IMG/VR virus record: IMGVR_UViG_3300009702_000039
Span: 1-43,911 of that record
Source: a virus
Direction: 5' to 3' (one strand)
DNA: 43,911 bases
The notes under the pieces are model-generated. The model had not been told where the DNA came from and did not search any database. It saw nothing but the letters and a program-made list of their open reading frames with translations. The translations under genes and the position numbers were made by a program. Shown here piece by piece: positions 8,967 to 23,231 of this stretch; the first letter of the stretch is position 1; every line of letters begins with the position of its first letter.

Positions 8967-9146
8967 TCTCCCCTTCTCCTCAAATTGTTTACAGTCGCCA
9001 TGGGTAAGCACACTCCGTAAAATAATTACCGGTCTCTCCCGACTGTCACCCTTCCATGAGACATCACTCAGGTTTCTATTTTCCTTAGGGTGTGATGCCC
9101 TTGCACTGCTGGCTTACCCGGGGCCACCGGAGCAGCGCGGAACTTG

Positions 9147-9878: not shown

Positions 9879-9890
9879 GTTACTTTCCTC

Positions 9891-11566: not shown

Positions 11567-11750
11567 AAATCTCCTCCAGTTTTGAATCCACCTCAGCCTT
11601 CTTCGTAATCTTCACTCGACCCTCTATAACAGCGTCGACCATCTCACGAAGCAGGTCGCTGTGGTTTATTCCAAGGTATTCACACTTCTTCACGAAGCCT
11701 ATTTTTGAAGCCTTGGGTAATCTGATAGTGATAACATCATTAAGTGCCAT
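11556..11750 (-). CDS. ribbon-helix-helix DNA-binding protein
   Basis: A 64-residue protein: VITIRLPKASKIGFVKKCEY then LGINHSDLLREMVDAVIEG. The alternating strand I-x-I-R-L-P followed by two helices is the Arc/MetJ/CopG ribbon-helix-helix pattern, with the strand side chains contacting DNA as a dimer. AAGGAGG lies just before the ATG. It could regulate the leftward operon, perhaps at one of the repeated sites in the divergent region, or be a DNA-structure protein. Confidence 0.75.
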   Translation of the reverse strand: MALNDVITIRLPKASKIGFVKKCEYLGINHSDLLREMVDAVIEGRVKITKKAEVDSKLEEIYEH

Positions 11751-11791
11751 GTCTCCTCCTTTATTTTGTGTTTACGAACACTACTCCTTTG

Positions 11792-14332
11792 TTATACGCT
11801 CGTCAACCCCCTTTTTTGATTTAGTCTCACCGCTGCTTTTTGATTCTCGTATTCTTTGAGCAGTTCAGCCGGTGTCATCATCCTGTATTTGTACATGTCT
11901 CTGATTATCCATATCCTTGTGCGGCTTCGGCCAGCCTTCTTTTTCACAAAGTGGTCTACACTACTCATCACCTTGCCGACCCTGGTACAGGTGAACCAGT
12001 CCGGGGCAGCGTTCATCAGACTTGCGTCGAACTGTCCGACCGATTGAATGGTCTCAGCTACATCAGATGCAGTCACGAGGTCTGCCCGGAGCGCACCAAT
12101 CTTCCTGTTTGCAAAGTTCTCAATGGTCACTTGGGCCGGTGACTTTGACTCTTCCCTAATTTCACGCAGGAACTCTGTCATTGGTGGAGGTGCGCCGGGG
12201 TTGAACTTGGATACATCCAGCTTCATTAGGAAGTCAATGCAGTATGCGTAACCCCCGTTCTCCATCCATGCCCAACTCTGCTCCCAGTATTTTGCCCAGT
12301 CCGGGTACATCTCCTCATGTTCATCACGGACAATCAGGTCAGTCCATACCGCATAGAACCTACGGCTCGTGCTGTTTATCTGCACCGGTAACGTGGAGTT
12401 CGTAGACATTGTACAGTTCACAATGTTCCTGACCTGCAGCCGGGCAATACCTTTCGGGTTCGGGCGCAGCTTGTCTGGCGGAGCGGCGGCCAGTGGCTTC
12501 AGTCTCGCACTCACCTCCTTTGCCTGCCGGTGGTCACCCAATTCTGTCTCATTGATGTGCAGGTGCTTGGCACTGAGCAGATAGTCATCGAAATCACTCA
12601 GTAACTCTATGCCAGAGATGGTCGTCGAGTATTCACCGACGGCTTTTACCAGGGGATACAACAGATAATCTTTACCTACCCCCTCTCTGCCACCGAGTAA
12701 GAGTACGTGGTTTATCTTACGCTCCGGGTGCTGGATAGTATAGGCCATCCACTTCAGCATATGCTCTTGATGTTCACCCCAACCCATGGCTTCCCAGTGA
12801 CGCAGCCAAGGGTTGCAATCTCCCGGGACACCGGCCACCGTGTGAATGGCTGACCATGAGTTGCCGTACTTTACGTTGCGCTCAGTAAATACTCGCGGCG
12901 AGCGTGGTACGAAGTCAAGCTTGTCAACCTTCTCGACTTGTCCCATCTCCAACGCTGTCTTCCGCACCTCCGGGTCAAGGTCATTGAACGCATTCTGAAA
13001 CGCCTCGGGCCTGTAAAAGATGCGAGTGTTACAATCGTAAAACTGATTCAGTTCTTTCACAAACAGGAATGACGACAGGAACACTGCCCTCTTCTTGTCG
13101 TCAGCATACCACTGTTTGCGCAAGTCTTTGAGCACTTCCTTGAGGAAGGTCTTCGTCCACCGCATGGCATCGGCCACCTCAGTCTGGCGCAGGTCACGCT
13201 CCATGACCGGCATGCTCTCAATGGCATGTAGCAGCTTCTCGGCAATGTCTCGCGCTTGGGGGGAAGAAGGAACCTCCCTCCGTAACATGTCGAAGTATTC
13301 GTCAATGCCGTTGGAGGAAAGAGGAGGGGAGACGGCATCGGTACCCTCGACACTGGGAGGGAGGTCTGTCGGCAGTGTACTCGCACTATCAACAGATGCA
13401 AACATTCTTTTCATTTGCCATGCCTTGAACTCGTTGCCGAATCCCGGTTTGTATTGTTCGATGTAACGCAGCAGGTCTCCACCGTTGCGGTCGTGGCAGC
13501 TTCCATGATGACACTTAAAGCCAATGGAGCCGTCGTCATTGGTGAAGATTGCAGCTCCCGAATCATCTTGTCCTGTGTGTCCTTCTACCCATGGGCAGGT
13601 GATGTCGAAGCGTCCGTCAGAGCGAACCTCTTTCACATTTATGAGGTTTTCGAGCTGTAGGATAGGATGGTCTGGGATGTCAGCGGCACCGTCGATACGC
13701 CCTTCCCGGCGAACAGCGTCAAGGTTCACAGACAGCGGTGCCGCCAGCTCCTCCATAGATGACCGGCGCTCAGGTTCCCATAGCAACATGCGACACTTGA
13801 ACGGCTCCCCGTCGACCAGCTTGGTTATCTTATGATTGTATCCTTCAGGCAGCCTCACGTATCGTGTGACACCCTTCATGCCTGAGTCTTTGCCATCCGG
13901 TGACAGGCCATTGGCAATCAGTCCGTCAAGCAGGTTCTCCACTCGGTGCCGCTCGGTGCACGGTTCATTCAGTATGTATCCCCATTGCTCTGACCCAGGT
14001 GATGTCTCCAGAATCCACGCAGGCTCCGGCAACTTCTGTGCCTCGACCAACGACAGCTTCTCCTTCACGTCGTCAAGCACAATCACCCGGGTTCGCAGGA
14101 AATTGACTTTACGACGACGAGCTATCCCTTTCTCATCCGGGGAGAATATCGAGATGGTAAAGTATTGATTCGACCCTTCAGTCAGTGTGTATCGACTTGC
14201 CCAGTCACCCTTCCACGCGATGAGATGTTTGTCCGAGGGGATGTTGCTCGGGTCATACATAAAATCGGTGATGTGAGCGAACGGTGCATCTTCAGCAAAC
14301 AGTGCTTGAAGGAACTCTTGGTTCGTTGGCAT
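11792..14332 (-). CDS. primase-helicase (RepB-like primase plus DUF5906 SF3-type helicase)
   Basis: An 846-residue replication protein. The N-terminal 200 residues resemble RepB/AEP-like primases (RTRVIVLDDVKEK, WILETSPGSEQWGYIL, GVTRYVRLPEG). A middle segment contains a Cys/His cluster, FKCHHGSCHDRNGGDLLRYI, seen in similar primase-helicases. The C-terminal half is an AAA/SF3-like helicase with Walker A GGREGVGKD (about 546-554), then HLHINETE and CTMSTNSTLP with an arginine pair (TSRRFYAV) typical of DUF5906. ATG 14332 has GAGGA six bases upstream. It likely loads at the origin and primes for the polymerase encoded downstream. Confidence 0.85.
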   Translation of the reverse strand: MPTNQEFLQALFAEDAPFAHITDFMYDPSNIPSDKHLIAWKGDWASRYTLTEGSNQYFTISIFSPDEKGIARRRKVNFLRTRVIVLDDVKEKLSLVEAQKLPEPAWILETSPGSEQWGYILNEPCTERHRVENLLDGLIANGLSPDGKDSGMKGVTRYVRLPEGYNHKITKLVDGEPFKCRMLLWEPERRSSMEELAAPLSVNLDAVRREGRIDGAADIPDHPILQLENLINVKEVRSDGRFDITCPWVEGHTGQDDSGAAIFTNDDGSIGFKCHHGSCHDRNGGDLLRYIEQYKPGFGNEFKAWQMKRMFASVDSASTLPTDLPPSVEGTDAVSPPLSSNGIDEYFDMLRREVPSSPQARDIAEKLLHAIESMPVMERDLRQTEVADAMRWTKTFLKEVLKDLRKQWYADDKKRAVFLSSFLFVKELNQFYDCNTRIFYRPEAFQNAFNDLDPEVRKTALEMGQVEKVDKLDFVPRSPRVFTERNVKYGNSWSAIHTVAGVPGDCNPWLRHWEAMGWGEHQEHMLKWMAYTIQHPERKINHVLLLGGREGVGKDYLLYPLVKAVGEYSTTISGIELLSDFDDYLLSAKHLHINETELGDHRQAKEVSARLKPLAAAPPDKLRPNPKGIARLQVRNIVNCTMSTNSTLPVQINSTSRRFYAVWTDLIVRDEHEEMYPDWAKYWEQSWAWMENGGYAYCIDFLMKLDVSKFNPGAPPPMTEFLREIREESKSPAQVTIENFANRKIGALRADLVTASDVAETIQSVGQFDASLMNAAPDWFTCTRVGKVMSSVDHFVKKKAGRSRTRIWIIRDMYKYRMMTPAELLKEYENQKAAVRLNQKRGLTSV

Positions 14333-14334
14333 GT

Positions 14335-14715
14335 TCAATCCTCGCTCGTCAGTCGACTAGCGTAGCGTTGGTTATGCTGAAAGGCAACACTCATTTCTTT
14401 TAGACGTTTTGCCTCAGCAAACATTCGCATCACCCGCTGTTCTCTGGTGATGTCGTATGGAGACTCCTTCAACCATCTCTTCTGCGCCCTCTGTGCTCTC
14501 TTGTAATGGTTCTTGGCTATCTTTGGCAGGAGTTGTCCCATGACAGTACGATGAAACTCCTCCGCATGTGGAACTCCTGCTCTCTCACAAACGATAGCCC
14601 AGTTAGCGTCCGCTACAGCGACACAGGCGTCGCACACATTGGCCTTCTCATACCAGATGTCTTCGAGAGTGTTGGTTATCACGGCTGACCACAGGTGTTT
14701 GCATGGCTCATACAT
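14335..14715 (-). CDS. hypothetical protein, 126 aa
   Basis: A 126-residue protein with a Cys/His-containing N-terminus (MYEPCKHLWSAV, ANVCDACVAVAD) that could bind zinc, and a helical, basic C-terminal half (KRAQRAQKRWLKE, AEAKRLKEMSVAFQHNQR). It starts at ATG 14715, overlapping the previous gene by 8 bases, and ends just before the primase-helicase, so it may be an accessory replication factor. No family is recognised. Confidence 0.6.
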   Translation of the reverse strand: MYEPCKHLWSAVITNTLEDIWYEKANVCDACVAVADANWAIVCERAGVPHAEEFHRTVMGQLLPKIAKNHYKRAQRAQKRWLKESPYDITREQRVMRMFAEAKRLKEMSVAFQHNQRYASRLTSED

Positions 14716-14896
14716 CACGACTGTCTACCTTGTTGAAGATGGCTATAATCTCTCGAGTAAGCTGAGCCTTCTCATGTTTCCCGGCTGCTACATAATGAGC
14801 CAGCCTCTCCTCTGCGTCATGACGATGTTTCAATCGAACCTCAGGTCGAGCGAAAAAGTAATGGCTGAATACTGTGTGCCGTTGTCCGGCATTCAT
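14708..14896 (-). CDS. hypothetical protein, 62 aa
   Basis: A 62-residue, His/Arg-rich helical protein (MNAGQRHTVFSHYFFARPEV, then RLAHYVAAGKHEKAQLTREI). Its ATG overlaps the previous stop codon (ATGA), and the downstream gene overlaps its end. No family is recognised; the support is tight operon packing. Confidence 0.55.
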   Translation of the reverse strand: MNAGQRHTVFSHYFFARPEVRLKHRHDAEERLAHYVAAGKHEKAQLTREIIAIFNKVDSRDV

Positions 14897-15114
14897 TGGT
14901 GAATGGTCTCTCTGTATCTGATTGTATCTTCCCTTGCTTCTATGTTCAAGAGGGTCTTGGTCATCTTTTTACCGATGTTATATGCTGCATTAGTGATTGT
15001 TGTCCCTCCTAACGTGCCATCGGCAATCCGGCCCCGGTCTTCCTCGCTCGCTCCGGCGCATAATCCTGTCAAAGCAGCAGCCACCATCTTTCGTCTCAAG
15101 TCACGCTTTTCCAT
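14893..15114 (-). CDS. hypothetical protein, 73 aa
   Basis: A 73-residue helical protein, MEKRDLRRKMVAAALTGLCA at the start, with a Gly/Thr-rich turn (DGTLGGTTITNAAYNIGKKM). GGAGG lies 10 bases before the start, inside the end of the upstream gene, which it overlaps by 14 bases. It resembles small host-related phage proteins of unknown role. Confidence 0.6.
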   Translation of the reverse strand: MEKRDLRRKMVAAALTGLCAGASEEDRGRIADGTLGGTTITNAAYNIGKKMTKTLLNIEAREDTIRYRETIHQ

Positions 15115-15301
15115 TTTGCATTATCCTCCTTCCTTCTTTGACACACTGGCTACATATTGTTCTGTATGGTGGCAAGTCTGACGTGATATAAACAACCTTA
15201 CCCTCGTCCTCCGGGGTTCTCTTCCGCCCACAGAAACTGCAGGTCTTGTGAACAAAACTCTTCGGCAAGGTACGAATCAATCGCATCTTTGTCTTCTTCA
15301 T
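15101..15301 (-). CDS. zinc-finger-like protein, 66 aa
   Basis: A 66-residue protein with two CxxC knuckles (KTCSFCGRKRTPEDEG and RTICSQCVKEG) 26 residues apart, a classic four-cysteine zinc ribbon. The start at 15301 is an ATG overlapping the stop of the 29-residue membrane ORF (ATGA). A longer frame back to 15376 would have no Shine-Dalgarno and would include low-quality sequence. Small zinc-ribbon proteins often bind host RNA polymerase or DNA; the role here is unknown. Confidence 0.6.
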   Translation of the reverse strand: MKKTKMRLIRTLPKSFVHKTCSFCGRKRTPEDEGKVVYITSDLPPYRTICSQCVKEGRRIMQNGKA

Positions 15302-15387
15302 CGGTGCCACCTGTACCACCTGGGTGACAGCAACAGATACAGTGCCACCGGTATCAAGATATAAATCCACATCCACAGGTTACTCAT
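15298..15387 (-). CDS. tiny membrane protein, 29 aa
   Basis: An ATG at 15387 overlaps the end of the upstream gene and opens 29 codons: MSNLWMWIYILIPVALYLLL then SPRWYRWHR. This is a single transmembrane helix with an aromatic, basic tail. Its stop overlaps the next ATG (ATGA). The perfect end-to-end packing on both sides supports real translation. It is one of at least four such mini membrane proteins in this operon. Confidence 0.5.
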   Translation of the reverse strand: MSNLWMWIYILIPVALYLLLSPRWYRWHR

Positions 15388-15835
15388 GCTCGTTTTTCCA
15401 CAGCGTGTAAGTCGCCTTTCCTATAGATGACAGAAGATAGTCGTTAAAGTCTGACTTCTCGGGAGGCTGCATTGACATCAGTTCAGCTGCCTCTTCTTCA
15501 GTCACCACTCCTCTGTCACACAATAGTTGAATGAGTCTTTCAATCAAGGGAGCTGTTATCTGTTCAATAGGGTGTTGCTCAGGTTCCCTGTTGCCTTTAT
15601 GAGAAGTTGCAACGACCACTTCCTTACGTGTTGCATGGCGATAATTCCGCATGTTACTCGAACTAGTCTTCACTCCGACATTGTGTCCTGTGAGCTTGAT
15701 TAAACTGAAATGATGAATGGAACCTAACGCCGGGTAGCTCACTAACCCTGTGACTCGGAACACATCGCCCATGGTACAGTTGCCACATGACGCCGCTGTA
15801 CGTACTACATAATCGCCTTTCCTAAACTTGGCCAT
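15380..15835 (-). CDS. hypothetical protein, 151 aa
   Basis: A 151-residue protein. The N-terminal half has an SH3-like look (FRKGDYVVRTAASCGNCTMG, VFRVTGLVSYPALGS), and the C-terminal half is helical and acidic (ERLIQLLCDRGVVTEEEAAE). GAGGAG six bases before ATG 15835 sets the start; an in-frame ATG further upstream (15856) would place this Shine-Dalgarno inside the gene. It follows directly after a terminator-like hairpin. No family is recognised. Confidence 0.6.
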   Translation of the reverse strand: MAKFRKGDYVVRTAASCGNCTMGDVFRVTGLVSYPALGSIHHFSLIKLTGHNVGVKTSSSNMRNYRHATRKEVVVATSHKGNREPEQHPIEQITAPLIERLIQLLCDRGVVTEEEAAELMSMQPPEKSDFNDYLLSSIGKATYTLWKNEHE

Positions 15836-15860
15836 ATTGGTCTCCTCTTTCCTCAAGTTG

Positions 15861-15894
15861 AAAAAGATGAGGCAGCATCACTTTCACTGCCTCA
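15861..15894 (-). terminator. intrinsic terminator or attenuator within the leftward operon
   Basis: On the minus strand TGAGGCAG and CTGCCTCA (15887-15894 and 15868-15875) form an 8-bp stem with an 11-base loop, followed by ATCTTTTTC. This is the only hairpin plus U-run I see in the leftward operon. It lies between the promoter-proximal small genes and the gene at 15835. No promoter is visible after it, so it is probably partial and would lower expression of the replication genes unless antiterminated. Confidence 0.6.
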
Positions 15895-15907
15895 CCCGGG
15901 TGCTTCT

Positions 15908-16078
15908 TTAAGCAGCGCGTTTGGTTAACGCTTCGACTTCATCAGGGCTCTGCTCCGCCCAGTGGTCGCCTTCCGTGCAGAAACGCAGCAGGCCCACCTT
16001 GGTGCTACGATAAGCACCTTCGGTTCTCTTGTTGCACTTTGTACAGAAACGCCGTCCATCTGCAGATGATTGCATCAT
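15908..16078 (-). CDS. small Cys-containing protein, 56 aa
   Basis: A 56-residue protein: RRFCTKCNKRTEGAYRST, then RFCTEGDHWAEQSPDEVE. The CxxC plus later C and H may form a zinc site. AGGAG lies 7 bases before the first of two ATG codons (16078, 16075). It ends just before the terminator-like hairpin at 15861-15894. No family is recognised. Confidence 0.6.
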   Translation of the reverse strand: MMQSSADGRRFCTKCNKRTEGAYRSTKVGLLRFCTEGDHWAEQSPDEVEALTKRAA

Positions 16079-16111
16079 AATAAATCTCCTTTTACTTGGT
16101 TTTGTGTTACT

Positions 16112-16291
16112 CTACTCAGCCTTCAGGGCCACCCCCTTTCCCTCCTCCGAGCGGCACATGCTACGCTCTTCTACAGGTGCGTCAAGTGTCTTGAACTTCT
16201 TGCGACAATCGGGGCACCGGCCTTGCTCGTCAATGCCACCGGCGTCCGTCGACCAGTAGCGGCCACAGAACTCACACTCACCGGCCTTCAT
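16112..16291 (-). CDS. zinc-ribbon protein, 59 aa
   Basis: A 59-residue protein with two CxxC pairs (GECEFCGRYWS and GRCPDCRKKFK) about 19 residues apart, a small treble-clef or zinc-ribbon fold. The ATG overlaps the preceding stop in an ATGA, and it ends with TAG at 16112-16114, one of few genes here to use that stop. The role is unknown; phage zinc ribbons often act on host transcription. Confidence 0.6.
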   Translation of the reverse strand: MKAGECEFCGRYWSTDAGGIDEQGRCPDCRKKFKTLDAPVEERSMCRSEEGKGVALKAE

Positions 16292-16476
16292 TCATTCAGC
16301 CCCTTGATAAGCTCCTCACCCATGTCCAGCCTGCCCATCACGTAGGCTCTGTCGAACAGGGCGCGAAGCTCAAGCGGAGTGACCGTAGCCTCGCCGTCAC
16401 GCATAATGATGTAACCTTTGTCAATGGTGTTGGTTACTGCTTCATAGAATTTATAGTCTATACTTTTTCGTCCCAT
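16288..16476 (-). CDS. hypothetical protein, 62 aa (follows hammerhead 1)
   Basis: A 62-residue protein: MGRKSIDYKFYEAVTNTIDK, then EATVTPLELRALFDRAYVMG. It starts 50 bases after the predicted cut of hammerhead 1, with the GAGGAGAG Shine-Dalgarno carried by the ribozyme element. It is mostly helical. No family is recognised. It would be the first gene on the RNA made by cleavage at 16527/16526, which then continues toward the replication genes. Confidence 0.65.
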   Translation of the reverse strand: MGRKSIDYKFYEAVTNTIDKGYIIMRDGEATVTPLELRALFDRAYVMGRLDMGEELIKGLNE

Positions 16477-16490
16477 CTCTTCTCTCCTCG

Positions 16491-16554
16491 AGCTGTCTCA
16501 TCAGTGCCGGTAGCTCATCTCCAACAGACCTGGTCTCCCGGGTTTCGACAGTTA
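16491..16554 (-). ncRNA. type II hammerhead ribozyme, copy 1
   Basis: Minus-strand order is CUGUC (stem II, 16551-16547), GAAA (16546-16543), stem III ACCCGG-GAGA-CCAGGU, then C, stem I UGUUGG with loop AGAUGAGCUA and CCGGCA, then CUGAUGA (16504-16498) and GACAG (16497-16493). Stem II is GACAG/CUGUC, 5 perfect pairs. The predicted cut follows the C of GUC, between 16527 and 16526. Stem III has one C-A mismatch in its third position, the only defect in the core. It overlaps the stop codon of the pentapeptide-repeat gene, and the next ATG is 50 nucleotides after the cut. Confidence 0.9.
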
Positions 16555-17013
16555 CACCAGCCCGCTTCTGAGTGATACGTTCTTCAATCTCGCTCCTCTG
16601 AAGTTAGCTCCGACCAAGGTGACATGGTTCAGGTCAACTCCGGTCATATTGGCATCTTGCAGGTTAGCACACTTCAGGCTCGCTCCGGTAAGCTCCGAGT
16701 TACTCAGGTCAGCGGCACGCAGGTTCGCACCGTGCAGGCTCGCCCCGGCCAAGTCGGCTCGGTGCAGGCTCGCCCCTGTTAGGCACGCATACTGCAGATT
16801 TGCACCTATCAGGTCTGCTCCCATCAGGTCAGTCTCTTCCATGTTTGTACTGACCAATGTGGCATAGTGCATTCTTGCATACTGCAGGTTCACCCGACGC
16901 AGGTCGGCACAGCGCAGGTCGGCATAGCGCAGGTTGGCACGTTGGCCTCCCCTTTCATGGTGTAGCCACAGTCTGTGCTGCTCCAGTATATCATCCAGCT
17001 TTTTTTGATTCAT
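16552..17013 (-). CDS. pentapeptide-repeat protein
   Basis: A 153-residue protein. After about 30 N-terminal residues (NQKKLDDILEQHRLWLHHE) come at least 20 tandem pentapeptides of the A(D/N)Lxx type (for example ANLRYADLRCADLRR, GADLIGANLQY, GASLHGANLRAADLS), which fold as a right-handed four-sided beta helix. Some members mimic DNA and bind gyrase; this one is unassigned. ATG 17013 is chosen because AAGGAGG lies six bases before it, and it overlaps the upstream stop. Its own stop codon TAA sits at the edge of hammerhead 1 (16552-16554). Confidence 0.85.
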   Translation of the reverse strand: MNQKKLDDILEQHRLWLHHERGGQRANLRYADLRCADLRRVNLQYARMHYATLVSTNMEETDLMGADLIGANLQYACLTGASLHRADLAGASLHGANLRAADLSNSELTGASLKCANLQDANMTGVDLNHVTLVGANFRGARLKNVSLRSGLV

Positions 17014-17426
17014 TTTCTTCCTCCTTTCCATTCTGGTGGGTCACATGGCTCTGCGTGCTTCCATACTGCTCCATTTGAATCTTCGTATGGGAATGTTATT
17101 CCATCACTGTAATTTATAATGTATCTTTCACAATTTTTATCCATCCTTGGTTCAAGCACGCTACCCCAAACCTTTGCCCAATGGGATTCCGTTGGTATCC
17201 ACTTCCGCTCTGGTGGTGTGCCATAGTCGAACTGTGTCCCATCACGGAAGGTGAGGGTTGGGTCGTAACTCTTTTGGAGTCTACCATCAAGTGTGAATGT
17301 TTTACATCTGCCATCTCTAAACATAACGCCAACAGGACAGTAATTGGTTTGTACTACACTCATTACAATACCCTCCCCGAACTTAGGATGCTTTACCTCA
17401 TCCCCTTTACAGAATATCTGTTTCAT
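17010..17426 (-). CDS. hypothetical protein with UvrD/PcrA-tudor-like N-terminus, 138 aa
   Basis: A 138-residue protein. The start KQIFCKGDEVKHPKFGEGIV strongly recalls the small Tudor-like barrel at the C-terminus of UvrD/PcrA helicases ('GD.V.HPKFGEG.V'), continuing with VMFRDGRCKTFTLDG. A second, similar barrel may follow (WAKVWGSVLEPRMDKN, RYIINYSDGITFPYE). AAGGAG fits ATG 17426 better than the in-frame ATG at 17432. In UvrD this barrel contacts RNA polymerase, so a host-transcription role is possible but untested. Confidence 0.65.
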   Translation of the reverse strand: MKQIFCKGDEVKHPKFGEGIVMSVVQTNYCPVGVMFRDGRCKTFTLDGRLQKSYDPTLTFRDGTQFDYGTPPERKWIPTESHWAKVWGSVLEPRMDKNCERYIINYSDGITFPYEDSNGAVWKHAEPCDPPEWKGGRK

Positions 17427-17439
17427 TTTCATCTCCTTA

Positions 17440-17511
17440 TTATGTAATGTACAAAATGCCCAGTGACCAGAGAATGACTCCGGTCACCAGTGTTTGCATC
17501 TCCTCACTCAT
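17440..17511 (-). CDS. tiny membrane protein, 23 aa
   Basis: ATG 17511 opens 23 codons, MSEEMQTLVTGVILWSLGIL then YIT, ending in TAA at 17440-17442. It is almost entirely one transmembrane helix. It overlaps the end of the 47-residue gene by 8 bases and has GGAGAAG upstream. The stop of this frame is followed within 10 bases by the Shine-Dalgarno of the next gene, so it fills the gap exactly. Low confidence because of its size. Confidence 0.4.
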   Translation of the reverse strand: MSEEMQTLVTGVILWSLGILYIT

Positions 17512-17647
17512 CGTCCGCTTCTTCTCCAAACAGTTCTCTCAGCTCCTGAGTCTCGGTGAAGCTGAGGCACTCCTCGTCAGTCAAGTTTGACAGACTACTC
17601 TGTCCTGAAGCTTCGTCCAGTGCCTGTTCAATATCGAAATGTGTCAT
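17504..17647 (-). CDS. acidic hypothetical protein, 47 aa (follows hammerhead 2)
   Basis: A 47-residue, strongly acidic protein: MTHFDIEQALDEASGQSSLS at the start and LRELFGEEADDE at the end, with no predicted membrane segment. Its ATG is exactly 50 bases after the predicted cut of hammerhead 2, using the GAGGAGAG of the element. Very acidic small early proteins can be DNA mimics or inhibitors, but nothing specific supports that here. Confidence 0.6.
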   Translation of the reverse strand: MTHFDIEQALDEASGQSSLSNLTDEECLSFTETQELRELFGEEADDE

Positions 17648-17661
17648 CTCTTCTCTCCTCG

Positions 17662-17753
17662 AGCTGTCTCATCAGTGCAGGTAGCTCATCTCCTGCAGAC
17701 CCGGCCAGCTGGACAGCTGAAGGCTGTACGGCTGCTGGCCGGGTTTCGACTAT
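17662..17753 (-). ncRNA. type II hammerhead ribozyme, copy 2 (extended stem III)
   Basis: The same minus-strand architecture as copy 1, but stem III is an 11-bp perfect helix (ACCCGGCCAGC with GCUGGCCGGGU) capped by a 24-base region that can form an inner hairpin ACAGC-CUUCA-GCUGU. Stem I is UGCAGG/CCUGCA, fully compensated relative to the other copies. The cores GAAA (17747-17744) and CUGAUGA (17675-17669) and the GUC cut between 17698 and 17697 are intact. Stem II is weakened: GACAG faces AUAGUC, giving three pairs, an A-A mismatch and a G-U. The AUAG contains the stop codon of the upstream gene. The next ATG is 50 nucleotides after the cut. Confidence 0.85.
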
Positions 17754-17959
17754 CGGGGTATCAGTTCTCGACTGACCACTTCATCCTCCACTATGTGACA
17801 GTGTATCTCGTATTCTTTGTTGTACTCTCCACCCATGTCGATGAGCTGATACACGTGAGCCGGTTTCAGGCCAAACTTGTTGACCACCTCCTCAACGGTT
17901 TGAGTATTCCTCTGCCATCTTTTGTACAGGTCGATGAGTTCGATTTTGCTAATGTTCAT
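17750..17959 (-). CDS. helix-turn-helix-like hypothetical protein, 69 aa
   Basis: A 69-residue protein: NISKIELIDLYKRWQRNTQT then VEEVVNKFGLKPAHVYQLID. The second part has the length and hydrophobic pattern of a helix-turn-helix (V-x-x-V-x-x-K-F-G-L-x-x-x-x-V-Y-x-L). AAGGAG lies 8 bases before ATG 17959, which overlaps the stop of the 33-residue gene. A longer frame reaching 18082 reads through the ribozyme leader and is not the likely start. The TAG stop lies in the stem II strand of hammerhead 2. Confidence 0.6.
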   Translation of the reverse strand: MNISKIELIDLYKRWQRNTQTVEEVVNKFGLKPAHVYQLIDMGGEYNKEYEIHCHIVEDEVVSRELIPR

Positions 17960-18057
17960 AGTAAATCTCCTTGTCCTATCAGATACGCAATTCCAAGTAC
18001 TGCCCAGAATGCGGTACACCACATAAATACAATCAAGTCTTTCTGCCACCAGTTCAT
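17956..18057 (-). CDS. tiny membrane protein, 33 aa (follows hammerhead 3)
   Basis: ATG 18057 opens 33 codons: MNWWQKDLIVFMWCTAFWAV then LGIAYLIGQGDLL, a single membrane helix. It starts exactly 50 bases after the predicted cut of hammerhead 3, with the element's GAGGAGAG as Shine-Dalgarno, and its stop overlaps the next ATG (ATGA). This placement makes it convincing despite its size. The function is unknown. Confidence 0.6.
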   Translation of the reverse strand: MNWWQKDLIVFMWCTAFWAVLGIAYLIGQGDLL

Positions 18058-18071
18058 CTCTTCTCTCCTCG

Positions 18072-18135
18072 AGCTGTCTCATCAGTGTCGGTAGCTCATC
18101 TCCAACAGACCCGGTCTCCCGGGTTTCGACAGTTA
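18072..18135 (-). ncRNA. type II hammerhead ribozyme, copy 3
   Basis: All elements are perfect. Stem II is GACAG (18078-18074) with CUGUC (18132-18128); GAAA is at 18127-18124. Stem III is ACCCGG-GAGA-CCGGGU with a GNRA tetraloop. The GUC cut lies between 18108 and 18107. Stem I is UGUUGG/CCGACA with loop AGAUGAGCUA, and CUGAUGA is at 18085-18079. The upstream gene's TAA stop (18133-18135) abuts stem II, and the next ATG is 50 nucleotides after the cut. This is the copy I would treat as the reference. Confidence 0.95.
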
Positions 18136-18327
18136 CACCGGCAGCAGCTCATCCAGGTAGTCCGGCTCAAGTCCGAACATATCCTTTACCACTTCCTCAG
18201 CATTCATCCAGTCGCCGTTGTCGAAGTAGCATCTCACAGCCTCCTTCGCATCGAATATCAGGTCATCCGCCTCTTCGGCTGAGATGCCATCGCGCTTCAT
18301 TATCACTTCTTTGATTGTGCTCGTCAT
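18133..18327 (-). CDS. hypothetical protein, 64 aa
   Basis: A 64-residue acidic helical protein: MTSTIKEVIMKRDGISAEEA, then RCYFDNGDWMNAEEVVKDMF. GGGGGTGGG precedes ATG 18327. It overlaps the last 65 bases of the upstream 81-residue frame. Its TAA stop touches hammerhead 3. The ISAEEADDLI and GLEPDYLDELL segments look like paired helices. I recognise no named family, though similar 'stop codon then small acidic helical protein' genes are common in phages. Confidence 0.65.
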   Translation of the reverse strand: MTSTIKEVIMKRDGISAEEADDLIFDAKEAVRCYFDNGDWMNAEEVVKDMFGLEPDYLDELLPV

Positions 18328-18508
18328 CCCACCCCCAGTGCTTCTTTGTTGATTCAAACGAGGAGAATGCCGTCCGTGCAAAAAGTACCTTCTCCATCGT
18401 CTCGAGATTGTAGCCGATGATAGACGTCACCAGCTCCAGCTCCTCCTGTGTGGCGAACTGATTGTCCACCAGATAATCCCATGCTGTTTCTACACCTGTC
18501 TTTTTCAT
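18263..18508 (-). CDS. hypothetical protein, 81 aa
   Basis: An 81-residue protein: MKKTGVETAWDYLVDNQFAT, then LVTSIIGYNLETMEKVLFAR. The 'I..GYN.ETM..VL.ART' pattern recalls a small hypothetical protein found in many phages and hosts. AGGAGG lies 7 bases before ATG 18508, directly after the stop of the 144-residue gene. Its last 20 residues (KKHWGWDDEHNQRSDNEARW) overlap the next gene in another frame and look less protein-like, so the true end may have been altered by a small insertion or deletion. Confidence 0.6.
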   Translation of the reverse strand: MKKTGVETAWDYLVDNQFATQEELELVTSIIGYNLETMEKVLFARTAFSSFESTKKHWGWDDEHNQRSDNEARWHLSRRGG

Positions 18509-18942
18509 CATTTCACCTCCTGAAAGAATGCTTCACCGTTGCTTGCCCGGCCAACCATCTGCAGCTCGGGGCCGAAGGCTCCTGCTACACACTTCCGGAA
18601 CCCGGCCTCTACTCTCCGGCACCACTGTTCGCTCAGTCCCTCCGTGCGGTCACTGTAGTTATAGTCATCGTCCCGGGGCACCAAGCACACGGCCACCAGT
18701 CCGCAGTATTCACTCACGGTGACATAGGCCAAGTCGTTTGCCAAGATGGCGTGGTCTTCACGGCCCAGCCACTTGTCACAATCGTACAGGCTCGGGTACT
18801 GCTGCTGCAGGTTGTCGGTCAGGCTCTCCACCGCCCAGTCCCAGTTCTCTCGGGCGATGAATTCGTCGACAGTGCTGTCAATCTCAACGGTCGTGAACAC
18901 TGTTACTGTTGCCCCGCTTGGGGTTGATACGCTTCGTCCCAT
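18508..18942 (-). CDS. conserved phage hypothetical protein, 144 aa (follows hammerhead 4)
   Basis: A 144-residue acidic protein starting MGRSVSTPSGATVTVFTTVE, then PSLYDCDKWLGREDHAILAN and VTVSEYCGLVAVCLVPRDDD. I remember this 'MGRSVSTP...KW.GRED...L.N..A...VSEYCGLV.V' pattern as widespread in phages and plasmids, but without a known function. The start is 50 bases after the predicted cut of hammerhead 4, with the element's Shine-Dalgarno. Its stop overlaps the next gene's start. Confidence 0.75.
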   Translation of the reverse strand: MGRSVSTPSGATVTVFTTVEIDSTVDEFIARENWDWAVESLTDNLQQQYPSLYDCDKWLGREDHAILANDLAYVTVSEYCGLVAVCLVPRDDDYNYSDRTEGLSEQWCRRVEAGFRKCVAGAFGPELQMVGRASNGEAFFQEVK

Positions 18943-18956
18943 TGTCTCTCTCCTCG

Positions 18957-19020
18957 AGCTGTCTCATCAGTGCCGGTAGCTCATCTCCGACAGACGGCCC
19001 GGAGGCCGTTTCGACAGTTA
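18957..19020 (-). ncRNA. type II hammerhead ribozyme, copy 4
   Basis: Stem II is GACAG (18963-18959) with CUGUC (19017-19013), and GAAA is at 19012-19009. Stem III is ACGGCC-UCCG-GGCCGU with a UNCG-type tetraloop, completely different in sequence from copies 1 and 3 but fully paired. The GUC cut lies between 18993 and 18992. Stem I is UGUCGG/CCGGCA with loop AGAUGAGCUA, and CUGAUGA is at 18970-18964. The upstream TAA (19018-19020) abuts stem II, and the next ATG is 50 nucleotides after the cut. Confidence 0.95.
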
Positions 19021-19386
19021 CTTCTTCTGTTTCTCAATCACCCTTGTCGCGTCTCTCCTCATCGCTGCTGCAAGGTGCTTGTTGAACGCCGCATTGGTCA
19101 TGGTGCTCCAGTTCGTGTTCAGGCCAATGTGCTGCTGGATGTCCTTGAGGGTGAGTGGAATATCCACACTTTCTCCATTCTCATGTTTCTGCAGGAACGA
19201 ACATACTCCATGCTCCCACATATGCACCCTGATGTACACTTCCTCGTAGTTGCGCTCGGTGATTATGTTGAACCCGAGACTGTTACCCGCCCATATCAGC
19301 GCCTCAGTAACCGGGTTCAATCTATCTTCACTCCAGCACAGGTTTTTGTAATCCTTCACGTTTTCAACGCTCCAGTTTAATGCCAT
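19018..19386 (-). CDS. hypothetical protein, 122 aa (follows hammerhead 5)
   Basis: A 122-residue protein: MALNWSVENVKDYKNLCWSE, then NPVTEALIWAGNSLGFNIIT and a basic end (RVIEKQKK). Its ATG is 50 bases after the predicted cut of hammerhead 5. The DNA of its last codons (encoding KQKK and the stop) is duplicated upstream of hammerhead 5, so the ribozyme has been copied together with the tail of this gene. No family is recognised. Confidence 0.7.
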   Translation of the reverse strand: MALNWSVENVKDYKNLCWSEDRLNPVTEALIWAGNSLGFNIITERNYEEVYIRVHMWEHGVCSFLQKHENGESVDIPLTLKDIQQHIGLNTNWSTMTNAAFNKHLAAAMRRDATRVIEKQKK

Positions 19387-19400
19387 TGTCTCTCTCCTCG

Positions 19401-19464
19401 AGCTGTCTCATCAGTGCCGGTAGCTCATCTCCGACAGACGACCCGGAGGCCGTTTCGACAGTTA
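19401..19464 (-). ncRNA. type II hammerhead ribozyme, copy 5
   Basis: Stem II is GACAG (19407-19403) with CUGUC (19461-19457), and GAAA is at 19456-19453. Stem III is ACGGCC-UCCG-GGUCGU, which keeps pairing by a G-U relative to copy 4. The GUC cut lies between 19437 and 19436. Stem I is UGUCGG/CCGGCA with loop AGAUGAGCUA, and CUGAUGA is at 19414-19408. It is the first ribozyme after the promoter, about 200 nucleotides into the transcript, between the 39-residue and 122-residue genes; the ATG is 50 nucleotides after the cut. Confidence 0.95.
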
Positions 19465-19479
19465 CTTCTTCTGTTTCTC

Positions 19480-19599
19480 CTATAAGATGACTGCAGCGCC
19501 AACGGCACCACAGACTATCGGTAGCAACATGCCACCGGTCATAATTGAAATAACTACTGCTACGGTAAGTCCCAGTATAACTGCGCGTGCTTGTTTCAT
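19480..19599 (-). CDS. small membrane protein, 39 aa (first gene of leftward operon)
   Basis: A 39-residue protein: MKQARAVILGLTVAVVISIM then TGGMLLPIVCGAVGAAVIL, two hydrophobic segments separated by a TGG turn. AAGGAGG lies six bases before ATG 19599, so longer upstream frames are not needed. It is the only gene between the promoter and the first ribozyme, so its mRNA would be released as a separate short RNA of about 200 nucleotides. The function is unknown; immediate-early membrane peptides can act in superinfection exclusion. Confidence 0.65.
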   Translation of the reverse strand: MKQARAVILGLTVAVVISIMTGGMLLPIVCGAVGAAVIL

Positions 19600-19645
19600 G
19601 TTGAGCCTCCTTGGTTTGGTCGGCGTCTCTGCTGCCGATGCCGCA

Positions 19646-19675
19646 ATTATAGCGCCGAGAAAAAACAATTGTCAA
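19646..19675 (-). promoter_or_regulatory. consensus sigma-70 promoter of the leftward operon
   Basis: On the minus strand TTGACA (19675-19670) and TATAAT (19651-19646) are both perfect consensus hexamers with an 18-base spacer. Transcription should start near 19639, about 40 bases before the first gene. No other consensus promoter was found in the leftward operon, so this one may serve all genes from 19599 to 3384. Confidence 0.85.
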
Positions 19676-19742
19676 GCACTTGTTTCACAGGTGTGTCGTT
19701 TTGTCACACAAGTGTTATACAGTTTCAATGGTGCGTGGAGCT

Positions 19743-20131
19743 AGTGTCCGCATTATTGTTCAACGATTCCAGTAACTTAGGTAATGTACATCTCAGGAGC
19801 TGTGGTTAAAGTGTCCGCGTAGTATCCGCAGTAAATGTCAATAATATCAATACGTTAGAAGATTACAGTTGTTCATGTGTCCCTGTTGCGGACACTATAT
19901 AAAAGTCAATAATAACAAGGTGTTGGTGTATGTTTACGGTAAGTTTACCGGACACTATACGTTATTCTGTGAAAATCGAAAAGTGTATATGTGTGTCGCT
20001 GGAGTTCTCAGTTTTCAGTTTTCTAGTTAGAGTGTCCGCATGATGCTCTGAGAATGTCGTAAGTTGCTGATATACAAGGGAAAATAGGTGCGGACACTAG
20101 GGCCAAATAAAGTGTCCGCGAGAGTGTCCGC
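19743..20131. repeat. iterated AGTGTCCGC motif, seven exact copies
   Basis: AGTGTCCGC occurs exactly on the plus strand at 19743, 19810, 20031, 20111 and 20123, and as GCGGACACT at 19888 and 20090. One-mismatch copies lie at 19821 (AGTATCCGC) and 19948 (CCGGACACT). Several are flanked by TA-rich sequence, as in CTATATA. Spacing is irregular (12 to 143 bases) with mixed orientation. Such sets are usually binding sites for a repressor or replication initiator, or small phage promoters. A chance occurrence of seven 9-mers in 390 bases is not plausible. Confidence 0.85.
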
Positions 20132-20137
20132 GTTTTC

Positions 20138-20168
20138 AGAATCTGTTTAATATCAAGCACTTACAGCA
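20138..20168 (+). repeat. 31-base direct repeat, first copy
   Basis: A 31-base unit beginning AGAATCTGTTTAATATCA and ending in AGCA occurs here and again at 20484-20514 with two mismatches, 346 bases apart. Nine bases after this copy lies GTATACATTTGTA (20177-20189), whose exact inverse TACAAATGTATAC (20526-20538) follows the second copy. The two composite elements bracket the other repeats of the control region. Confidence 0.75.
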
Positions 20169-20198
20169 CTGATGTCGTATACATTTGTAAAACAAAAC

Positions 20199-20273
20199 TG
20201 TCGAGGATTTCATGGATTGCAAGATTAGCATGCTGCAGAGTCAATGATAGCCCCATTTGCAGAATCCTCGACA
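20199..20273. repeat. 11-bp inverted repeat with 53-base interior
   Basis: TGTCGAGGATT (20199-20209) and AATCCTCGACA (20263-20273) are perfect complements. The interior contains the palindrome AGCATGCT. The element could form a long stem-loop RNA, an initiator-binding dyad or an attachment-like core. GGAGG follows directly and precedes a 13-codon frame at 20291-20332, so a regulated leader is also conceivable. Confidence 0.5.
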
Positions 20274-20377
20274 TATGGAGGAATCCGGATATGTCAGACA
20301 AACCGTTACGATTGTATCACCAAAATCCGTGACATTCACTCGATTATCAACAGTCTAATTTCATCAATGTCGAAATA

Positions 20378-20470
20378 ATAGTGACACTGTGAGTAAGGTT
20401 ACTCCTGAAATAGTGACACTGGGGGTAGGGTTATTAGCTCTGTTACACACACTGGGAGTAGGGGTATTAG
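20378..20470 (+). repeat. three tandem ~32-base repeats
   Basis: The unit ATAGTGACACTG followed by GGGTAGGGTTATTAG-like sequence starts at 20378 and 20410. A third, more diverged unit keeps CACTGGGAGTAGGGGTATTAG cut to its core at about 20450-20470. The conserved CACTG cores lie at 20385, 20418 and 20450, so the period is 33 then 32 bases, three helical turns, suggesting a protein bound to one face of the DNA. Confidence 0.7.
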
Positions 20471-20483
20471 AGCAGGATTTCAG

Positions 20484-20514
20484 AGAATCTGTTTAATATC
20501 AGGCACTTAGAGCA
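20484..20514 (+). repeat. 31-base direct repeat, second copy
   Basis: Second copy of the unit at 20138-20168 (two mismatches), followed by the inverted 13-mer TACAAATGTATAC at 20526-20538. It lies about 120 bases before the terminase small subunit gene. Confidence 0.75.
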
Positions 20515-20570
20515 TTCTGTATGATTACAAATGTATACATGACCATTGTGCAACAGATTGCAATGATTCA

Positions 20571-20603
20571 TTGACTATCGTGCACCGTGCCAGACAATAG
20601 TCA
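20571..20603 (+). promoter_or_regulatory. possible rightward promoter with overlapping dyad
   Basis: TTGACT (20571-20576) and GACAAT (20593-20598) with a 16-base spacer are a weak match to a sigma-70 promoter. The same stretch contains the dyad TGACTAT (20572-20578) / ATAGTCA (20597-20603). Located 30 bases before the packaging genes, it could be a regulated late promoter, but the -10 match is poor. Confidence 0.3.
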
Positions 20604-20632
20604 GCAACTATGCGTCACAGGAGCCGAGAGAT

Positions 20633-21079
20633 ATGGGAAAATTGACCGTGAGAATGGGGCCGCTGGCCGGTCTGCATCGGAGCCACGCGCTGCTCATCAT
20701 TGAGTGGCTCAAGGACTTCAGCCTGCAGCGTGCAGCAGAGGCCGCCGGTATGACGTTTGAGAATGCAACCAAGGTCATGAAAAGGGAAGACGTGCGTGCC
20801 ATCGTAGACGGACAGCTCGAGGAGCTGATGCACAATTCACAGATTGATGCGCAGTGGCTGCTGTTCGAGCTGGTGGACAATCACCGGCTGGCCAGGCAGC
20901 AGGGCAACATTGCAGCGTCCAACGCAGCACTCCGCATCATAGCTCAGCACGTCACGGTGAAGGCACTCGCACCGATAGCCGTCGACCATACGTCATCCGA
21001 TGGCAGCATGACACCGGCCCCGGCCATGACACCTGATGAGCTGCGTGGCATTGCCGATGAGCTGGAGGCTGCCTGCTGA
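20633..21079 (+). CDS. terS: terminase small subunit
   Basis: A 148-residue protein in the first structural position. An N-terminal helix-turn-helix (WLKDFSLQRAAEAAGMTFEN then ATKVMKREDVRAIVDG) matches the DNA-recognition domain of phage small terminases, followed by helical oligomerisation sequence (NAALRIIAQHVT) and an acidic end (PDELRGIADELEAAC). AGGAG lies 9-10 bases before ATG 20633. It selects the packaging site and hands DNA to the large subunit encoded next. Confidence 0.75.
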   Translation: MGKLTVRMGPLAGLHRSHALLIIEWLKDFSLQRAAEAAGMTFENATKVMKREDVRAIVDGQLEELMHNSQIDAQWLLFELVDNHRLARQQGNIAASNAALRIIAQHVTVKALAPIAVDHTSSDGSMTPAPAMTPDELRGIADELEAAC

Positions 21080-21080
21080 T

Positions 21081-23231
21081 ATGTTCATGAGGGGTGGAGA
21101 AGCTGTTGATAAGTCTGTGAGTAACTCTGGTACAAGCTGTGCAGAGGCTGTGGATAAGCCTGTGGATAAGCTGGGGAGAACCTGTGAAAAAGCTGTGGAG
21201 ATTGACTTCATAAAGGCGACCCGGGGGAAGGGGGAGGGGGCCATGCATAAAAACATGTCCTTCCTGCTCCCAGAATCCGCACCAGATTTTTTACAATGCC
21301 CCACAGAAAAAAGTGACTCTTTTTTACAATGCCCCACAGAAAAAAGTGACACAGAAAATGTTGATTTTACAGAACCACGTGAATCACGTTTTTCTGAGCA
21401 GTATGAGAAAACTGATTCAGAAAAACACATTTCAATTTCTGAAGTTGATTCAGAAAAACGCGATGCAATTTTGAAAGTGAAACTGCTGACAGATTTTTTA
21501 TTTTTTACACGCTGGATGTTCAAACATGTCCTCGGTAAGCAGTTCATTGTAGCCCGGCACCATAAAATTATTGCCAAGGCGTTGACGAAGGTGGCGAGCG
21601 GTGAAATAACACGCCTGATTATCAACGTGCCTCCTCGATACGGTAAGACAGCTCTGGCCGTTCACATGTTCAATGCGTGGATACTTGCCAACAACTCGGC
21701 ATCCAGAAGCATCCATCTGAGCTACTCTGACGACCTGGCCCTGGACAACTCATCGGCTATCCGTGACATCGTCAAGCATGACGAGTTCCAGCGTATGTTC
21801 CCCGTTAAGCTGCGCACAGACAATGACTCGAAGAAGAAGTGGTACACTGATACAGACGGCGGGCTGTACAGTGTTGCGTCCGGCGGGGCCATCACCGGGT
21901 TCGGCGCGGGTGCCATGGAGCGTACCATATCCGGTACAGGCTCGCCTGCTGACGGGTTCGGTGGGTTCATCAGTATAGATGACCCGTTGAAGCCGGACGA
22001 TAGCTACAGCGATGCGGCACGGACGGCGGTGAACCGGCGCTACAACGGCACCATCGCGTCGCGTGTCAACTCTGAAGAGACACCTGTCGTAGTCATCATG
22101 CAGAGGCTGAACGAGGACGACCTCAGTGGGTTCCTGCTGGACGGAGGCTCCGGGGAGGAGTGGGTGCACATCTGCCTACCGGCCATCAACGAAGACCCGG
22201 AGGTCGGGCCTGTGGGTGAGCCGCTGTGGCCGGAGAAGCATAGCCTCGAGCGACTGAGGCAGATGGAGCAGGCTGACCCGTACACCTTCGCGGGACAGTA
22301 CCAGCAGCGCCCGGCACCCATCGGCGGCGGACAGTTTAAGGATGAGTGGTGGCAGTTCTACCGCAAGCCGCCGCAGATACTGTATCGGCAGATTTACGGG
22401 GACACCGCGATGAAGATAAAAGAGGTGAACGACTTCAGTGTGCTCCAGTGCTGGGGTCGCACTGATAAGGGTATCGTGCTGCTCGACCAGCTGCGTGGCA
22501 AGTGGGAGGGGCCGGAGCTGTTGAAGCAGACGGTGGCCTTCTGGAACAAGCACTCGCATGTGAAGGGGATGGGCACACTGAGGAAGATTTGCATTGAGGA
22601 TAAGGCGTCCGGCACCGGGCTGATACAGAGCCTGCAGCGCAGGAAGGACGACGATGGTAACATGCTGCCGAGCATCCCTGTTAAACCAATACAACGTGGC
22701 ATTGACAAGATAGTACGAGCCAATGATGTGTCTCCATGGGTGGAGGCCGGACACGTGTCATTGCCTCAGGATGCACCATGGCTGAGCGACTATCTGGCTG
22801 AGTTCGGCATGTTTCCGAAGGGCAAGCATGATGACCAGATTGACCCGACAATGGACGCAATTAAGGATATGCTACAGGAGGCAGACATGAGTTTCATTCC
22901 ATCAGCAGAGGTGTGCAAGTCAATCAGAGCAGGTAGTGGCCACTATATGGGCGATGACCCCCTCATCGGAGGACTGTATATCGCCAAGAACGCCAATGAA
23001 AAGAGTTTCATTCAGTTCCGGCGCGGCAAGGATGCGTGTAGCGAGACGAGTTACACTATCAACTGGGAGAAGAGTAGTGACCCGGTGAGGCTGAGGGAGC
23101 TGGTGGTTAAGACCATCGAGAAGCATAAGCCCGACATGATGTTCATCGGAGAGGCCGGTGCAGGGCTGCTGTGTGACGACTTGCTGGCTCTCGGTCATAA
23201 CATTACACGGGTCATCATGTCCGGGGAGTAG
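21081..23231 (+). CDS. terL: terminase large subunit with N- and C-terminal extensions
   Basis: A 716-residue packaging motor if started at ATG 21081. The ATPase has Walker A PPRYGKTAL (about 184-192) and Walker B GFISIDDPLKPDD (about 296-308); the nuclease has YGDTAMK (about 439), IEDKASGTG (about 506) and HDDQIDP (about 583). The first 120-150 residues are low-complexity and repetitive (VDK repeats, a duplicated FLQCPTEKSD unit), so ATG 21243, preceded by a purine-rich GGGGGAGGGGG, is an alternative start. Residues after about 603 form an extra domain (GGLYIAKNANEK, FIGEAGAGLLCDDLLALG) like a degenerate RNase H-type nuclease. The stop is TAG. Confidence 0.88.
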   Translation: MFMRGGEAVDKSVSNSGTSCAEAVDKPVDKLGRTCEKAVEIDFIKATRGKGEGAMHKNMSFLLPESAPDFLQCPTEKSDSFLQCPTEKSDTENVDFTEPRESRFSEQYEKTDSEKHISISEVDSEKRDAILKVKLLTDFLFFTRWMFKHVLGKQFIVARHHKIIAKALTKVASGEITRLIINVPPRYGKTALAVHMFNAWILANNSASRSIHLSYSDDLALDNSSAIRDIVKHDEFQRMFPVKLRTDNDSKKKWYTDTDGGLYSVASGGAITGFGAGAMERTISGTGSPADGFGGFISIDDPLKPDDSYSDAARTAVNRRYNGTIASRVNSEETPVVVIMQRLNEDDLSGFLLDGGSGEEWVHICLPAINEDPEVGPVGEPLWPEKHSLERLRQMEQADPYTFAGQYQQRPAPIGGGQFKDEWWQFYRKPPQILYRQIYGDTAMKIKEVNDFSVLQCWGRTDKGIVLLDQLRGKWEGPELLKQTVAFWNKHSHVKGMGTLRKICIEDKASGTGLIQSLQRRKDDDGNMLPSIPVKPIQRGIDKIVRANDVSPWVEAGHVSLPQDAPWLSDYLAEFGMFPKGKHDDQIDPTMDAIKDMLQEADMSFIPSAEVCKSIRAGSGHYMGDDPLIGGLYIAKNANEKSFIQFRRGKDACSETSYTINWEKSSDPVRLRELVVKTIEKHKPDMMFIGEAGAGLLCDDLLALGHNITRVIMSGE
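21104..21169 (+). repeat. DnaA-box-like repeats inside the terminase gene
   Basis: TGTGGATAA, the complement of the DnaA box TTATCCACA, occurs exactly at 21149-21157 and 21161-21169, and as TGTTGATAA at 21104-21112. They encode the VDK repeats of the N-terminal extension. They may be fortuitous coding repeats or true DnaA sites. Confidence 0.5.
21287..21350 (+). repeat. tandem 33-base repeat in the terminase gene
   Basis: A 31-base sequence starting TTTTTTACAATGCCCCACAG is identical at 21287-21317 and 21320-21350 (33-base period). It encodes the duplicated peptide FLQCPTEKSD. The surrounding 250 bases are much richer in A and T than the rest of the gene. Confidence 0.8.
22887..23231 (+). CDS. 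possible internal in-frame start: separate C-terminal domain of terminase
   Basis: AGGAGG at 22876-22881 sits five bases before ATG 22887, in frame within the terminase large subunit gene. This is one of the best Shine-Dalgarno sites in the late region and would yield a 114-residue protein (MSFIPSAEVCKSIRAGSG to the common end) equal to the C-terminal extra domain. In-frame internal starts that make a stand-alone C-terminal product are known in phage head genes. The alternative is chance: the same bases encode a plausible LQEADM helix. Confidence 0.45.
   Translation: MSFIPSAEVCKSIRAGSGHYMGDDPLIGGLYIAKNANEKSFIQFRRGKDACSETSYTINWEKSSDPVRLRELVVKTIEKHKPDMMFIGEAGAGLLCDDLLALGHNITRVIMSGE

Follow-up and report, generated by a model that had tools for sequence, protein, structure and literature searches.

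Why should a phage place several self-cleaving ribozymes one after another in a single operon? This question is raised by the IMG/VR virus record IMGVR_UViG_3300009702_000039 (43,911 bases, analyzed at full length and hereafter called the window), in which five type II hammerhead ribozymes lie within 3 kilobases (kb) on one strand, all of them at gene junctions. We consider it very probable that these ribozymes serve as self-cleaving punctuation, splitting the promoter-proximal mRNA into six hairpin-capped RNAs. This reading builds on three observations: the anatomy of the ribozymes, their placement, and the conservation of such arrays in other phages.

An initial annotation of this DNA had recognized five minus-strand type II hammerheads from the letters alone and had named an Infernal search with the corresponding Rfam model as a check. 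This assignment was borne out. A cmscan search of the whole record against Rfam matched the type II hammerhead model, RF02276, at all five positions on the minus strand (span 19460-16487; Table 1). Copies 1-4 exceeded the gathering score, the curated cut-off of 37 bits, and copy 5 fell below it (E 0.004). No Rfam ribozyme beyond these five was found in the 43.9 kb record. The order of the parts and the stem pairs agree with the initial description, and the core (CUGAUGA, GAAA, and GUC) is identical in all five copies. Moreover, the exact 3' module CTGATGA-GA-CAGCTCGAGGAG occurs five times in the window and not once in 100 shuffled sequences. Judged by model match and core, all five belong to the type II hammerheads, and self-cleavage is predicted for them.

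Alignments and minimum free energy (MFE) folds show stems I and III closed by loops and stem II open, which is the type II order. For four of the five copies folded in isolation, the MFE structure is the three-way junction of the hammerhead; that of copy 4 contains stems I and III but lacks stem II, which has just 3 base pairs (bp). The stem III of this copy is 30 nucleotides (nt) longer than in the others and consists of 11 bp with an inner hairpin. In copy 5, stem III is interrupted by a C-A mismatch, with core and pseudoknot intact, and this copy is possibly weakened. Fold z-scores ranged from -3.5 (copy 4) to 0, a measure that discriminates poorly for elements as short as these. By sequence, a pseudoknot between GAGCU in loop I and AGCUC on the 3' side of stem II is possible in every copy. 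The initial annotation, correct on order and core, had overlooked this pseudoknot, the long stem III of copy 4, and the mismatch in copy 5. Thus, the window shares with RF02276 the permuted order, the invariant core, the GUC site and the pseudoknot, and differs from it in the long stem III of copy 4 and in the score of copy 5.

Covariation of stems I and III had also been put forward. The pairs are as described, but they are weak evidence within five copies: pairing in stem I is 1.00 versus 0.93 with shuffled arms and in stem III 0.95 versus 0.50, with the observed value attained in some of the shuffles. Covariation is weak here because the copies arose by recent duplication (62-99% identity over 97 nt). 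Copies 1 and 2 (18950-19480; 99% identical) have about 100 nt in common, among them the final codons of open reading frame (ORF) 2 (EKQKK*), so that ORF2 is flanked by near-identical direct repeats. This repeat is a recent duplication.

The placement of the ribozymes at gene junctions, also claimed initially, is confirmed with a regular geometry. Upstream stop codons abut or overlap copies 2-5; in copy 4, the stop TAG (17752-17750) runs into the stem II strand. In front of copy 1 stands a TAA that corresponds to the duplicated ORF2 end; the true ORF1 stop codon is located 16 nt upstream of it. Each of the five ribozymes ends 10 nt ahead of the next ATG. The leftward operon starts at a sigma-70 promoter matching the consensus at 12 of 12 positions (19675-19646), which ends 46 nt upstream of the first start codon, and the ribozymes lie within the first 3.1 kb of this operon. 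The remaining promoter and terminator signals in this region of the window are at chance level, and terminators at the junctions were rejected as candidates since their signals were no more frequent than chance. Further leftward lie genes for primase, SSB, DNA polymerase and an SNF2-type helicase. Given the perfect promoter and these replication genes downstream, the label of early operon chosen initially is plausible. Junction coverage is incomplete: the five units contain, in order, one, one, three, two and several genes, and three of the five ribozyme-bounded units are therefore multi-gene.

The initial suggestion that the phage processes its own polycistronic RNA with this array is supported as a reading of the sequence, and the course of events would probably be as follows. 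Host RNA polymerase would transcribe the leftward operon from the promoter, and each ribozyme would fold on emerging and cut itself 3' of GUC co-transcriptionally, about 25-55 nt after the adjoining stop codon and exactly 50 nt ahead of the next AUG. A near-identical leader follows every copy, so that each predicted downstream RNA would have a 5' untranslated region of 50 nt. The upstream mRNA would keep its complete stop codon and end in hairpin III with a 2',3'-cyclic phosphate, whereas the downstream mRNA would begin with a 5'-OH and hairpin I, able to form the pseudoknot just before the Shine-Dalgarno (SD) sequence. In this way, the 3.1 kb leader part would give rise to RNAs of approximately 203, 444, 885, 410 and 1171 nt plus a long RNA for the replication genes, and decay would be uncoupled between the units. 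We infer cleavage in vivo, protection of the ends and an effect on expression; the candidate gains are that hairpins III and I protect the ends, that decay is uncoupled, or that small early genes are kept apart from those for replication.

Since five recent duplicates are uninformative on selection, other arrays were sought. RF02276 matches were counted in 100 IMG/VR records among the matches listed by hammerhead pattern scans, and arrays of 24, 9, 8, 7 and 6 copies were found; these records were picked by the hammerhead pattern and are uninformative on frequency among all phages. The longest array, in IMGVR_UViG_3300017605_000570 (G019; 9000-18500), has 24 type II hammerheads in 7.6 kb. Exactly one ORF occupies 22 of its 23 inter-ribozyme intervals, starting 6-13 nt after one ribozyme and stopping at the next, with the stop codon often within the ribozyme. 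Across 16 records with 86 ribozymes, an upstream stop together with a downstream SD and start codon was found at 70 of the 86, compared with 10% of random positions; of 77 stops measured, 31 ended at ribozyme position +2 or +3. Stem I pairing in G019 is 1.00 versus 0.51 in shuffled arms (maximum 0.70 of 2000), even though 22 of the 24 arms are distinct, and in two further records (G028 and G006) the pseudoknot partners covary across copies. The stem sequences vary freely, with pairing and core preserved.

The nine-copy record of the IMG/VR survey turned out to be the Streptomyces phage Diane. Seventeen related Arquatrovirinae were searched whole, and 13 cultured Streptomyces phages among them carry 8-13 ribozymes (nine in R4); no hammerhead was found in the other four, Endor1, phiHau3, Lika and Celeste. 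The array sizes from both surveys are thus 24, 13, 12, 11, 9, 8, 7 and 6 copies. In the 13 phages, 114 of 136 ribozymes lie between a stop codon and an SD with start, compared with 11% of random positions. When junctions were grouped by the downstream protein, the ribozyme was kept in all 13 phages at two orthologous junctions and in 12 at one, with compensated stem changes, and the gene content between ribozymes differs among the phages. Marav, phiScoe1, Alvy and Thestral have two complete hammerheads back to back at one junction, separated by 1-2 nt. Core variants also occur in the 13 phages: approximately 30 copies have CUGACGA in place of CUGAUGA, and about 15 have GUU or GUA in place of GUC at the cleavage site. 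In R4 (JX182370, 40500-51071), the annotated gp60.1, gp67.1 and gp75.1 are short ORFs overlying ribozymes, and the annotated starts of gp72, gp76, gp77, gp79 and gp81 lie upstream of or within ribozymes.

The four hammerhead-free phages carry a different element. A 40-nt tRNA-like minihelix, composed of a 5-bp acceptor-like stem, an 11-nt linker with GG, and a 6-bp T-stem with the T-loop TTCGAGN, occurs 28 times on their minus strands (5-9 per phage), always between a stop and a start codon (28 of 28); one example is in Lika (reverse-strand offset 3742-3782). It is found at a rate of about zero in shuffled sequence and was absent from the 13 hammerhead phages. Across the distinct minihelix sequences, all 12 base pairs are preserved without exception (19 of 19), eight of them with both sides changed, and one linker base covaries with the final T-loop base. 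Neither Rfam nor ARAGORN reported these minihelices, and no description was found in the open-access literature, subscription journals lying outside that search. The two elements occupy corresponding junctions: 10 of 13 minihelix-preceded genes have orthologs behind a hammerhead, compared with 4 of 45 other genes (Fisher p 4e-6; the entries are not fully independent because Lika and Celeste are close kin), and two of these four exceptions look like variants outside the strict minihelix pattern. Hammerheads are likewise missing from ten further minihelix-bearing records of about 50 kb, and in each of three shorter ones a single weak match scored below the cut-off. In the window, two weak AT-rich matches to tRNA-like elements, one of them within ORF1, were rejected as chance.

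Hammerhead and minihelix may thus be alternative means of cutting RNA at corresponding sites, the minihelix presumably being cut by host RNase P or tRNase Z, and the presence of one in place of the other argues for selection acting on RNA cleavage at the junction. There may be a broader principle, about which we are evenly divided: phages would split early polycistronic RNA by interchangeable junction modules, either hammerheads or, in sister lineages, a minihelix cut by host tRNA-processing enzymes, giving each small early gene or group its own hairpin-ended mRNA, and the window array would be one case of it.

Several points weigh against punctuation by self-cleavage in the window itself. The sequence record of its own five copies, being recent duplicates, shows little selection. 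Neither a hammerhead nor any other Rfam ribozyme is present in the nearest relatives identified, whose DNA polymerases are 57-69% identical, and among terminase relatives one hammerhead was found in one 117 kb relative and otherwise none. Cleavage of copy 5 may be slow, and translation could block cleavage, because a terminating ribosome would cover the 5' part of the ribozyme. Predicted SD accessibility is 0.63-0.76 before and 0.61-0.83 after cleavage, from nested folding with the pseudoknot outside the model. Masking of the SD by nested structure was accordingly rejected, as it changes little upon cleavage, and if cleavage brings a benefit, it must therefore lie in stability or uncoupling.

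The same folding result bears on a rival view, that each array is a set of regulated switches in which translation of the next gene is governed by the uncleaved ribozyme with its pseudoknot beside the SD, the signal being cleavage or its block by a terminating ribosome. The pseudoknot strand indeed abuts the SD (AGCUC directly followed by GAGGAG), and stop codons are frequently located within the ribozyme, as counted above; yet the SD is predicted to be mostly open in either state, and the finding that an unrelated tRNA-like element takes the place of the ribozyme at these junctions favours cleavage over SD masking. We regard such switches as unlikely. The ribozymes might also mark the borders of gene cassettes, being near-identical repeats at which homologous recombination swaps small early genes, with RNA activity secondary. 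The identity of the window copies and the ORF2 codons shared by copies 1 and 2 do indicate that duplication spread the module, and the variable gene content of the 13 Streptomyces phages is in line with exchange. However, the copies in G019, G028 and the Streptomyces phages share little beyond the core and still have good stems, and a core strictly kept with flanking identity lost is already seen in G019. Recombination would favour sequence identity and fails to explain such compensated divergence, so the cassette view seems quite improbable.

Two other explanations are weaker still. RNA units with a 5'-OH and a 2',3'-cyclic phosphate carry the ends that are ligated by RtcB, so the array could be a source of circular or spliced RNAs, its units being joined by host RtcB into circular mRNAs. 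The predicted ends match RtcB substrates as generally known, and RtcB is present in E. coli and other bacteria among the control genomes. A phage-encoded RtcB was considered as a partner and rejected, since it is absent from the six array phages searched. Spliced and circular products were sought by Perreault et al. and none were found (PMC3088659), and we judge this explanation highly improbable. The damage to copy 5 and the relatives without array would fit a view of the elements as decaying, inactive leftovers of ribozyme duplication that no longer have a function, but four of the five copies are intact to the last core base, differences in stem III are mostly compensated, and arrays recur in unrelated phages at conserved orthologous positions, which makes mere remains extremely improbable. 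Self-cleaving punctuation accordingly remains our preferred reading of the array, whose features are listed in Table 1.

Table 1. Features of the promoter-proximal part of the leftward operon. Ribozyme coordinates are from the covariance model, and predicted cuts are set from the GUC/stem I boundary.
Feature	Position	Strand	Evidence or remark
Sigma-70 promoter TTGACA-18-TATAAT	19646..19675	-	12/12 consensus; sole such site in 15500-21200
ORF1, 39 amino acids (aa), first cistron	19480..19599	-	ATG after AAGGAGG; no match in Pfam and PHROG
Hammerhead 1 with adjoining TAA (19464-19462) resembling ORF2 end	19397..19464	-	RF02276 43.1 bits (cmscan 19460-19397); predicted cut 19437/19436
ORF2, 122 aa, single-gene unit between hammerheads 1 and 2	19018..19386	-	ATG 10 nt past ribozyme; stop abuts next ribozyme
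Hammerhead 2	18953..19017	-	RF02276 45.4 bits (cmscan 19016-18953); predicted cut 18993/18992
Three-gene unit of overlapping genes: ORF3 (18508-18942), ORF4 (18263-18511), ORF5 (ending 18133)	18133..18942	-	ORF list; no family match
Hammerhead 3	18068..18132	-	RF02276 37.7 bits (cmscan 18131-18068); predicted cut 18108/18107
Two-gene unit: ORF6 (about 33 aa) and ORF7 (17750-17959, 69 aa)	17750..18057	-	
Hammerhead 4, extended stem III	17658..17752	-	RF02276 37.9 bits (cmscan 17751-17658); predicted cut 17698/17697
Multi-gene unit: several small ORFs, ORF10 (17010-17432), pentapeptide-repeat protein (16552-17031)	16552..17647	-	PF00805 E 1.7e-35
Hammerhead 5	16487..16551	-	RF02276 33.4 bits, below gathering (cmscan 16550-16487); predicted cut 16527/16526
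First ORF (62 aa) of long downstream part leading to primase, SSB, DNA polymerase and helicase	16288..16476	-	

The window is a podovirus-like phage. Its right side encodes terminase, head-tail adaptor, major head, tail and internal virion proteins, and its DNA polymerase shares 62% identity with its counterparts in Vibrio phages with similar genome size. A plus-strand ORF of 2897 aa (33999-42692) occupies a fifth of the genome. In a search for named relatives of the array region, a phage DNA match was obtained for the pentapeptide-repeat gene only; the DNA of this gene, which precedes hammerhead 5, resembles those of P22-like Salmonella phages. Relatives of ORF3 were sought and none found. 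The only close match to a window ribozyme sequence came from IMGVR_UViG_3300027881_001510, a GC-rich contig of 12 kb that is unrelated to the window phage and has five type II hammerheads; one of its hammerheads has the stem I loop and pseudoknot letters of the window.

Intergenic cutting of phage RNA has a known parallel in phage T7, whose early mRNA is cut between genes by RNase III, leaving hairpin-ended mRNAs. The cuts are similarly placed, but T7 uses a host protein and here the RNA itself would cut, so the likeness is one of analogy and not of kinship. Clustered phage hammerheads are also known. Perreault et al. reported in 2011 that several hammerheads flank single genes or gene blocks in prophages and proposed mRNA processing; tandem phage hammerheads cleaved in vitro and, for A. 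tumefaciens, in E. coli, where a triple array was shown to cleave, and a pseudoknot of loop I with the 3' tail, typical of the majority of type II members, was needed for speed (PMC3088659). The window array resembles these clusters in having multiple copies that flank genes or short blocks in phage DNA. The arrays described here differ in number, the window having five copies, G019 24 and the R4-type phages 8-13 against a triple as the longest found in that paper, and in their defined stop-to-SD position (PMC3088659). In view of those clusters (PMC3088659), and because arrays longer than five, up to 24, are readily found, the initial claim that no case with five in line had been described does not stand as novelty; the window array is a further instance of known clustered phage hammerheads and not unprecedented. 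For the arrays of R4-type phages, no description was found in the open-access literature, with subscription journals outside that search. A 2023 paper reported that bacterial hammerhead and twister ribozymes are enriched near each other and near Mu-like phage genes, for a reason unknown (PMC10085705).

Although bacterial and phage hammerheads were described in number in 2011, no proven function for them was found in the literature. The quantitative rule of stop codon, ribozyme and SD holds in unrelated phages. R4 and its relatives with and without arrays make hammerhead function testable in a laboratory host, and the arrays offer natural parts for protein-free cutting of polycistronic RNA.

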